Source: Microvirga sp.
GTDB lineage: Bacteria > Pseudomonadota > Alphaproteobacteria > Rhizobiales > Beijerinckiaceae
Assembly: GCA_031181145.1 (NCBI GenBank)
Contig: JAPSLB010000012.1
Span: 21,611-85,610, forward strand
Direction: 5' to 3'
Length of the DNA stretch: 64,000 bases
Within the stretch, counting starts at the first letter, position 1; each line of letters opens with the position of its first letter. Below, piece after piece: positions 14,900 through 18,319 of this stretch. The notes under the pieces are model-generated. The model made no database searches and was not told the origin of the DNA. It worked only from the letters and a program-made list of their open reading frames with translations. Both the position numbers and the translations under genes were made by a program.

Positions 14900-14919
14900 G
14901 CGTATAATATACTATACGC
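14900..14919 (-). promoter_or_regulatory. Candidate Zur box upstream of the importer
   Basis: GCGTATAATATACTATACGC is a 20-base palindrome with nine of ten pairs matched, centred 36-37 bases upstream of the binding-protein start codon. It has the GTATA-n-TATAC architecture reported for alphaproteobacterial Zur sites and closely resembles the two palindromes between the COG0523 and zur-like genes 2 kb away. Zinc-loaded Zur there would block transcription, giving uptake only in zinc shortage. Confidence 0.75.
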
Positions 14920-15027: not shown

Positions 15028-15666
15028 TCACGGTTGACGCAAGGACTCGGTGATCGCGAGGAAGAGCCGCACGACGTCCATCCCCTCGATCGGCGGGGAG
15101 CGATGCCGGACATCAGGGCGATCCGCATCCGCTTCGCGTCCCCCAAGCATGAGCGCCACCCAACCGCGTTCCATCCGCCGGATCTGCTCCGGATCGATAC
15201 GAACTCCTGGGGCTGCGCCATGTAATATGGGGGATCCAGCCATTCGGTGCCCGGGCCGAGGCAGGTGCTCACGAGCCGGAAGCACACGTTGTCCGTATGG
15301 AACCCGAGGCAGGCGTCGTCCTCGATCACGTCGAGGCGAAGGGACAGGTGTCGGTTACCCGACACCCGCTCGAACATCAGCGCAATAAAGCTCAAGCCGT
15401 TGACGAGCTACTGCCTCATCCAGCCCGGCCCGATCCGGCGCCAAGTAGTTCTGCACCTGTAGCCGCAGTCCTGTCGGATCACCATCGAGCCGCAGGCGTG
15501 GCAGACGATCGACAGGCATCATATCGATCTCGGTCGTCACCACCAGCTCCAGGACGCGGGGCATGAGGCCGATCGGACCTGAGCGGAGGGCCTGCGTGTC
15601 AGCCTCTTCCCATCCGCGTCGGTACGGCCCCATTCGTTCGGGAAGCGCGGCGTGTTCAGGCTGCAT
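15028..15666 (-). pseudogene. DUF1826 gene broken over three reading frames
   Basis: Three overlapping minus-strand frames carry consecutive parts of one DUF1826 protein. The N-terminal part starts at 15666 (LPRLRLDGDPTGLRLQVQNYL). A central part has LRLDVIEDDACLGFHTDNVCFRLV and GPGTEWL. A C-terminal part has RSPPIEGMDVVRLFLAITE and stops at 15028. At least two single-base shifts are needed to join them, near 15370-15400 and 15230-15290. DUF1826 genes commonly follow COG0523 genes in zinc-starvation operons; here the candidate start overlaps the COG0523 stop by about ten bases. Function of the family is unknown. Confidence 0.82.
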
Positions 15667-16888
15667 CGGCGCGGCCCCAGAACGGAAAGGGATCGCGCAG
15701 GTGGCGATAGGCATTGGGATCGAAGCGCGTGGCGGTCAGTGATCCGGTCAGGCACTCATCGAGTGCCGCACGGATGGCGGCCTCGTCCATGCCGGTGCCG
15801 ATGAAGACGAGTTCCTGGCGACGATCGCCCCAGACCGGGCTCCAGTGCCGCTTCATCATGCCCCTCCATTCGGGGTGATCGGGCCAGTGCTGCTTCGGGA
15901 TCGCACTCCACCAATAGCCCATCGCCGTCACCCGTGCGATGGCGCCCGCGAGCGAGAATTCACCCACCCACTTCGGCCGAGTGGCGAGCCAGAAGTGCCC
16001 CTTCGCGCGGATCAGTCCCGGCCAGGTTCGGTTGATGAAGGCTTTGAACTTGTTGGGATGGAACGGTCGTCTGGCCCGATAGACGAAGCTCTGAATGCCA
16101 TACTCCTCCGTCTCCGGCGCATGCTCGGCATGGCCATAAAGCTCCTTGTACCAGAGTGGATGCCGCTGGGCCTTCTCCTCGTCGAACAGCCCGGTATCAA
16201 GGATACCGGAGAGCGCCACCTTGCCGAAATCGGTCTCGATCAGGCGTGCATCGGGGTTGAGCGCCACCACGACCTTGCGCACCAATGACAGCATATCAGA
16301 TGATACCTCCGACACCTTGTTGAGCACGACCACATCGGCGAACTCGATTTGCTCCACGAGCAGGCCGACGAGAGTCCGTTCATCGCCCTCGCCCGCTGTC
16401 GCGCCGCGGTCGCGCAGAAAGTCGTTCGAGCCGTAATCCTTCAGGAGATGCGCGGCATCGACCACGGTCACCATGGTGTCGAGCCGCGCCACATCCGAGA
16501 GGCAGTTTCCGTTCTCGTCCCGGAACGAGAACGTGCTCGCCACCGGCAAGGGCTCGGCGATGCCCGTTCCCTCGATCAGCAGGTAATCGAAGCGCCCTTC
16601 CTCACTCAGGCGTCGCACCTCCGCCAGGAGATCGTCGCGAAGGGTGCAGCAGATGCAGCCGTTGGTCATCTCCACCAGCCGCTCGTCCGTGCGGGAAAGA
16701 TTAGCGCCGCCGTCACGCACCAGATCGGCATCGATGTTGACCTCGCTCATGTCGTTGACGATCACCGCGACCTTGCGCCCTTCGCGATTGTTCAGGACGT
16801 GATTGAGCAAGGTGGTCTTTCCGGCACCGAGAAAGCCCGAAAGCACGGTCACGGGCAGGCGGCGGTCTGGGACTGACATATCGGACAT
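15656..16888 (-). CDS. COG0523 (CobW/ZigA-type) GTPase, zinc metallochaperone
   Basis: The start MSDMSVPDRR at 16888 gives 410 residues; the longer track ORF would read across the Zur boxes. The P-loop GFLGAGKTTLLNH lies near residue 20, the metal-binding CxCC motif is in NGCICCTLRDDL near 75, and the GTPase motif NKVSE follows. A CobW C-terminal domain starts near residue 275 (YGIQSFVYRARRPFHP). COG0523 proteins use GTP hydrolysis to hand metal to client proteins. Zur boxes in front of the gene point to zinc allocation during starvation, as for ZigA/ZagA. Its partner DUF1826 gene just downstream is broken. Confidence 0.9.
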   Translation of the reverse strand: MSDMSVPDRRLPVTVLSGFLGAGKTTLLNHVLNNREGRKVAVIVNDMSEVNIDADLVRDGGANLSRTDERLVEMTNGCICCTLRDDLLAEVRRLSEEGRFDYLLIEGTGIAEPLPVASTFSFRDENGNCLSDVARLDTMVTVVDAAHLLKDYGSNDFLRDRGATAGEGDERTLVGLLVEQIEFADVVVLNKVSEVSSDMLSLVRKVVVALNPDARLIETDFGKVALSGILDTGLFDEEKAQRHPLWYKELYGHAEHAPETEEYGIQSFVYRARRPFHPNKFKAFINRTWPGLIRAKGHFWLATRPKWVGEFSLAGAIARVTAMGYWWSAIPKQHWPDHPEWRGMMKRHWSPVWGDRRQELVFIGTGMDEAAIRAALDECLTGSLTATRFDPNAYRHLRDPFPFWGRADAA

Positions 16889-16924: not shown

Positions 16925-16967
16925 TATGTATAGTATACTGTACGTAAGCCTATCCGTATAATGTACG
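16925..16967. promoter_or_regulatory. Two candidate Zur boxes in a divergent promoter
   Basis: TATGTATAGTATACTGTACGTA (16925-16946) is a palindrome with nine of eleven pairs matched around the perfect core AGTATACT. CGTATAATGTACG (16955-16967) has five of six pairs matched around a central base. Their centres lie about 25 bases apart. They sit between the COG0523 start (16888, minus) and the zur-like start (16983, plus), so both genes could be zinc-repressed. Confidence 0.72.
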
Positions 16968-16982: not shown

Positions 16983-17351
16983 ATGAATTCGGAAATGTCG
17001 GGCCAGCCGGACGCCCTGTCACCCGTGCAGAGCGGCATCCGGGAGATCCTTGGATCGGCTAATCGTCCGCTGATGGCGGTCACTCCGCCGACGGCTTATC
17101 GTAACCTGGCCCGTCTCGTCGAGCATGGGCTGGTCCACCGCATCGAGACGCTCAGCGCCTATGTCACCTGTCCCAGGCACCATCACGGCGAGCTCGCGGC
17201 CTTCGCGATTTGCAGCGGCTGGGACCCTGTCGAGGAACTCGACGATCCCGGCATCAGCCGCAGCCTTCATGCATGGAGCGAGGCTCGTGCCTTTAGGCTC
17301 GAAGGCACAGGCCTTGATCTCAATGGGCTCTGCGCCGCCTGCTCCCCCTGA
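16983..17351 (+). CDS. Shortened Zur/Fur-family regulator, possibly defective
   Basis: The protein is 122 residues, while Zur proteins are usually about 150-165. The opening LSPVQSGIREILGSANRPL matches the first Fur-family helix, but the text then jumps to VTPPTAYRNLARLVEHGLVHRIE; the helix-turn segment that normally lies between them (the YDLLxxL region) is missing, about 20 residues. The regulatory part keeps a His cluster (CPRHHHGE) and the last CxxC (LCAACSP). The usual ICxxCG reads ICSGWD, so one structural zinc cysteine is lost. It may be an inactive relic or an altered regulator; another zur gene elsewhere would then control the boxes. Confidence 0.65.
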   Translation: MNSEMSGQPDALSPVQSGIREILGSANRPLMAVTPPTAYRNLARLVEHGLVHRIETLSAYVTCPRHHHGELAAFAICSGWDPVEELDDPGISRSLHAWSEARAFRLEGTGLDLNGLCAACSP

Positions 17352-17392: not shown

Positions 17393-18319
17393 ATGCTCAC
17401 TCGCAGAACCGCCATGGCCGCCTTGTTCCCGGCAACCATTGCGCTTTCGTGGCTCTCAGCCCCTGCCCTGGCCCAGGCTCCGAAGCTGAAGGTCGTGGCC
17501 TCGTTCTCGATCCTAGCCGACCTCACAAGCCAGGTCGGCGGCGACCGCATCGAAGTCAGCGCTCTCGTCGGCCCGGACGGCGACGCCCATGTGTTCTCGC
17601 CCAAGCCCGCCGATGCCAAGAAGGTCGCCGATGCACGGGTCGTCGTGGTGAACGGTCTCGGCTTCGAGGGTTGGATGAACCGTCTGCTCAGGTCGTCGGG
17701 GAGCAAGGCCGCTCTCGTAACGGCCAGCACGGGTGTGAGGCCACTCCGGAGCGAGGAGCACGGTCATGATCATGCCGGGCACAGTCATGGTGAGTTCGAT
17801 CCCCATGCCTGGCAAGACGTTACGAACGTCAAGGTCTACGTCACCAACATCCGTGACGGATTGGTCAAGGCGGATCCCGCGGGCAAGGAAACGTACGAGG
17901 CCAATGCCAAGGCCTACCTTGCCGAGCTCGACGCACTCGATGCCGAGGTAAAGGCGGCGGTCGGATCGATCCCGCAGGAGCGGCGCAAGGTCATCACGAC
18001 CCATGATGCCTTTGGTTACTTCTCCAAGGCCTATGGGCTTGAGTTCCTGTCGCCGCAAGGCGTCTCGACCGATGCGGAGGCCTCCGCCGCAGACGTGGCG
18101 AGGATCGTGCGCCAGATCATGACCGAGCGCATCCCGGCGGTGTTCCTGGAAAATATCTCGGATCCGCGCCTGATCGAGCGCATCTCGAAGGAATCGGGAG
18201 CGCGGATCGGCGGACGGCTCTACTCCGACGCCCTGTCGAAGCCGAACGGGCCAGCCGGCACCTACATCGACATGATCCGCAGCAACGTGATGGAAATCAC
18301 GAAGGCGCTCGTGAGCTGA
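17393..18319 (+). CDS. ZnuA/AztC-like zinc-binding protein of an ABC transporter
   Basis: The product is 308 residues with a signal peptide ending PALAQA, so it is periplasmic. It belongs to the cluster A-I metal-binding proteins: VVASFSILADLTSQVGGDRIEV, DGDAHVFSPKPADAKKV with the first metal His, FDPHAWQDVTN, a His-rich loop (HGHDHAGHSHGEFDPH) and TTHDAFGYFSKAYGLEFLSPQGVSTDAE. The acidic ligand lies near the C-terminus (RLYSDALS). It starts 41 bases after the zur-like gene, so they are probably cotranscribed. No ZnuB/ZnuC gene follows, so the membrane parts must be elsewhere. Confidence 0.9.
   Translation: MLTRRTAMAALFPATIALSWLSAPALAQAPKLKVVASFSILADLTSQVGGDRIEVSALVGPDGDAHVFSPKPADAKKVADARVVVVNGLGFEGWMNRLLRSSGSKAALVTASTGVRPLRSEEHGHDHAGHSHGEFDPHAWQDVTNVKVYVTNIRDGLVKADPAGKETYEANAKAYLAELDALDAEVKAAVGSIPQERRKVITTHDAFGYFSKAYGLEFLSPQGVSTDAEASAADVARIVRQIMTERIPAVFLENISDPRLIERISKESGARIGGRLYSDALSKPNGPAGTYIDMIRSNVMEITKALVS

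Follow-up and report, generated by a model that had tools for sequence, protein, structure and literature searches.

Does a Zur protein that has lost part of its DNA-binding domain still take part in zinc control, or is it what remains of a gene that is being lost? The question is raised by a short open reading frame, here called zur2, in the window that we analyzed (64,000 nucleotides) from a draft Microvirga genome (4.56 Mb, 93 contigs, about 90% complete). The frame encodes 122 residues from an ATG with AAGAGG upstream, and lies between the divergently transcribed zigA and an aztC-like gene that starts directly downstream, 41 nt past its end (Table 1). The aztC-like product scores 342.5 bits against NCBIfam AztC, slightly below the cut-off of 350.

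The preliminary description of this DNA took the frame to encode a Zur-like protein, and profile and structure comparisons agree. The product matches NCBIfam PRK11639 (49.9 bits, E 2.9e-13), a score under the curated cut-off, as are those of the intact Zurs of the genus; the match covers profile positions 58-147 only and is confined to the part of the protein past the missing segment. Pfam FUR gives 18.7 bits against a cut-off of 23.1, with the alignment beginning at profile position 40. The top PDB matches (phmmer) are XcZur (PDB ID: 7dh7) and EcZur (PDB ID: 4mtd), the AlphaFold2 model resembles 7dh8 with a TM of 0.74 (Foldseek), and the closest structural matches to the model are holo-Zur chains. 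By these comparisons the protein is a homologue with the Fur/Zur fold: it shares with EcZur (PDB IDs: 4MTD; 4MTE) and XcZur (PDB IDs: 7DH7; 7DH8) the helix alpha-4, the hinge, the C-terminal alpha/beta dimerization domain and recognizable site B ligands and second CxxC motif, and differs from both in lacking alpha-3 and in having an incomplete site A. A wrongly chosen frame or start was rejected, since the start codon and the upstream AAGAGG are common to M. makkahensis, and no other start restores the segment.

Table 1. Features of the zur2 locus, in window coordinates.
Feature	Position	Strand	Basis
zigA, zinc metallochaperone GTPase, divergent from zur2	15656..16888	-	NCBIfam NF038288, 609.5 bits (cut-off 600)
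Zur-box-like dyad A, TGTATAGTATACTGTACG	16927..16944	.	Kept in 4/4 zur2 promoters; window scan
Zur-box-like dyad B, CTATCCGTATAATGTACG	16950..16967	.	Kept in 4/4 zur2 promoters; CGTACCATATAATGTACG in two
zur2, probable degenerate Zur paralogue, 122 aa	16983..17351	+	Profile matches, synteny, tree grouping
Deletion junction, codons Met31-Ala32-Val33	17073..17081	+	Nucleotide alignment with M. makkahensis (L040)
Recognition helix alpha-4 (residues 36-47), kept	17088..17123	+	AlphaFold2 model; full-length control H32-40, H47-59
Sensory site B ligands His52, Cys63, His66-68, Glu85, kept	17136..17237	+	Alignment with 36 main Zurs
Structural site A, first CxxC broken: Cys77-Ser-Gly-Trp80-Asp81 (TGC AGC GGC TGG GAC)	17211..17225	+	
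Second CxxC, Cys117 and Cys120, kept	17331..17342	+	Alignments
aztC-like zinc ABC transporter substrate-binding protein	17393..18319	+	Pfam ZnuA, 311 bits

Alignment with the syntenic M. makkahensis gene shows that 36 bp, encoding 12 residues (TAYEILNRLQTR in M. makkahensis), are deleted in frame from zur2; a DNA-binding segment is thus absent as first described, but it is shorter than the "about 20" residues then estimated. For the full-length sister, AlphaFold2 predicts helices at residues 14-25, 32-40 and 47-59 (the last being the recognition helix); the deleted stretch forms the helix 32-40, which is alpha-3 of the winged helix. The model of zur2 lacks this helix while the helix 36-47 is present, and the complete N-terminal winged helix (alpha-2, alpha-3, alpha-4) is therefore broken by the deletion of alpha-3. 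Mean pLDDT over blocks of the DNA-binding domain falls from 92-97 in the full-length control to 71-79 in zur2, and the rmsd to holo-Zur is larger, at 3.2 A compared with 2.2 A; the C-terminal dimerization domain is still folded in the predicted model. In EcZur, most DNA contacts come from residues 44-72, with Tyr45 providing a key hydrogen bond (PMC4219657), and by alignment the equivalent of Tyr45 falls inside the deleted stretch. Repeats of ACGGC exactly 36 bp apart flank the segment in M. makkahensis, and the sequence is compatible with a slipped-strand deletion between them, though the gene has 14 5-mer pairs of this kind spaced 30-60 bp apart, making the repeats weak evidence of slippage. 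No other Zur lacking alpha-3 was found among 397 genomes of the family, in a scan of 85,000 species or among 48 Microvirga genomes, and the idea that this is a genus-wide form was rejected on the same grounds.

The second lesion lies in the structural zinc site. Trp80 replaces the second cysteine of the first CxxC and is followed by aspartate where glycine is conserved, confirming the change of ICxxCG to ICSGWD remarked on earlier. Cysteine occupies this position (alignment position 104) in all 36 main Zurs of the genus and in the three other copies of zur2, and the main Zurs all keep the four structural cysteines, of which zur2 has three in its two CxxC motifs. The lost residue belongs to the same site as Cys103 of EcZur, whose C103S mutant forms no stable dimer, does not bind DNA and does not repress (PMC4219657). 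Sensory site B, with ligands assigned from EcZur (PMC4219657), is present at all four of its positions (His, Cys, His, Glu), which are invariant across the 36 main Zurs (alignment positions H76/C87/H91/E109). Compared with intact orthologues, zur2 thus carries lesions of the kind that mark a pseudogene, the 36-bp loss of alpha-3 and the change of Cys to Trp, and these probably disable it.

A second, full-length zur, which the preliminary description had suggested looking for, does exist in the genome. This gene, zur1, is canonical in sequence (contig C25, G000:C25:55748-56125) and belongs to the same family as zur2, with about 42% identity; unlike zur2, it has alpha-3, the four cysteines of site A and a complete site B. 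The zur2 locus is rare: only 4 of the 48 Microvirga genomes carry it, with the zigA-zur2-aztC arrangement syntenic in M. makkahensis (L040), Microvirga sp. VF16 and a third genome (G026). In the tree the zur2 copies form one group with moderate support (83/68), sister to the main zur of the genus, and the copies from this genome and M. makkahensis are sisters (99/99). A recent origin of zur2 as a copy of zur1 was rejected, since it groups with the three syntenic genes. These occupy the same slot between zigA and aztC behind the same promoter dyads, and all three have alpha-3, unlike zur2 of the window. The M. makkahensis gene (L040 6001-6402; 80% identity) has its last site-A cysteine changed to Tyr, a different cysteine from the one lost here, and those of VF16 and G026 (49-52%) keep all four.

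Other genes of the island are also altered in these relatives. The zigA of M. makkahensis (L040:4693-5906) is split in two frames near residue 338, as a pseudogene or through an assembly error, and aztC of VF16 (L008:1924-2805) has a changed frame at its end with the loss of about 20 C-terminal residues. Together with the M. makkahensis cysteine loss, this makes the locus look prone to decay. Between VF16 and the window dS is 0.30 for zigA and about 1.0-1.3 for zur2 and aztC; zigA of VF16 is thus closer than its neighbors, which points to a mosaic history of the island. In a search of plasmids the VF16 locus alone came near, on a 1.4-Mb replicon (plasmid).

Zur boxes had also been noted ahead of the frame, and comparison of the four orthologous promoters upholds this, insofar as two Zur-box-like dyads are kept at 4 of 4 loci amid otherwise changed zigA-zur2 intergenic sequence. 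The comparison yields a clear motif for the Microvirga Zur box, CGTATA-N6-TATACG; perfect copies precede znuC-type operons in many Microvirga that lack zur2, and one also precedes an aztD-like gene. Within the window a perfect box (CGTATAATATACTATACG, 14901-14918) lies ahead of an operon for a NikA/CntA-like ABC transporter (14876 down to 11594), which suggests zinc-controlled uptake of a metallophore or metal. A genome-wide scan allowing two mismatches did not outperform its reversed control (25 against 64 forward matches), and the box evidence is therefore limited to the cross-species footprint and to boxes that match perfectly. These candidate boxes would naturally be read by zur1, in which case zinc starvation probably still induces zur2.

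For zur2 of this genome and of M. makkahensis, pairwise dN/dS is 0.28, compared with 0.15 for aztC and 0.13 for zigA, and it is also 0.28 for the intact zur2 pair of VF16 and G026, so that most of the divergence appears to have accrued under constraint. A branch model leaned toward relaxation on this genome's zur2 branch (2dL 4.17) with an unstable estimate, and the end branch is 0.21 for this genome against 0.12. As the branch test gave the same boundary value for the intact M. makkahensis aztC, and the synonymous sites of the outgroup are near saturation, we set branch dN/dS aside as proof of relaxation. When random substitutions were introduced into zur2, the frame was still open in 80% of copies after 10 and in 64% after 20; an unconstrained frame often stays open this long, and the open frame is thus no evidence of function. 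Selection against premature stops, via polarity on aztC, could also act here. A recent loss of zur2 fits all of these data.

We consider it probable that zur2 is a degenerating duplicate, dead in DNA binding, on an accessory zinc-scavenging island, with zinc control residing in zur1. It would be a second, accessory Zur gene on an island under Zur-box control (the NikA/CntA-like transporter, zigA, zur2 and aztC); loss of alpha-3 together with a broken site A should abolish DNA binding; and the intact zur1 would carry zinc control, including that of the zigA-zur2-aztC promoter. The suggestion of a relic, one half of what was first proposed, is supported by the intact zur1, the rarity of the locus and the loss of a structural zinc ligand in each of two sister copies. 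Its other half, a dominant partner, gained no positive evidence and runs counter to the behavior of EcZur C103S. Against a relic stand the open frame, the intact start and promoter dyads, the full set of site B ligands and a pairwise dN/dS equal to that of the intact pair. The dyads imply that zur2 would be produced once zur1 has left the DNA, and the short protein might then pair with zur1 through its C-terminal domain, titrating or poisoning it in a positive feedback on zinc uptake. The predicted fold of the dimerization domain and the retention of site B and one CxxC would permit this, but the site that holds the EcZur dimer together is short of one ligand (PMC4219657), the two proteins are only about 42% identical, the form is confined to this one genome among those scanned and no excess conservation of a dimer surface came to light. 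As EcZur C103S forms no stable dimer (PMC4219657), easy heterodimer formation is also spoken against, and we regard such a partnership as improbable; that zur2 acts as a dominant-negative anti-Zur, induced by zinc starvation, sensing and dimerizing without binding DNA, seems to us very improbable indeed.

The intact site B, an overall dN/dS well below 1 and the closeness of aztC would also suit a use free of specific DNA binding, as a zinc buffer or as a leader frame for aztC. No sequence feature has been gained in zur2, however, its fold is expected to be unstable without site A, and the dN/dS signal may be older than the deletion, so we think this unlikely. An error of sequencing or assembly, the true gene having alpha-3, the cysteine or both, has to be considered for a single draft genome in many contigs, but the loss is a clean one without a frameshift, with a plausible origin by slippage, and separate substitutions at conserved sites occur as well (Val53Ala, Cys95Trp and Gly96Asp, in alignment columns), which makes it improbable too. 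Most likely, then, zur2 is the relic of an ordinary gene recently broken and not a regulator of a novel type.

As a relic, zur2 would represent an accessory second zur in the course of being lost while the adjoining zinc-uptake genes stay under the same promoter. If the shortened protein had an activity, nature would have supplied a rare test of whether a Zur can tune a full-length partner when its own DNA-reading helix pair is missing.

The comparison also points to an unusual neighbor of zur1. A second Zur-like protein is encoded beside it, outside the window (L004:2049-2504; G000:C25:56326-56781), with a near-invariant winged-helix half and no cysteine at site B or in either CxxC. A further 35 rows from the genus have it next to zur1; among 149 genomes sampled from the family, matches at 86% identity or more are confined to Microvirga.
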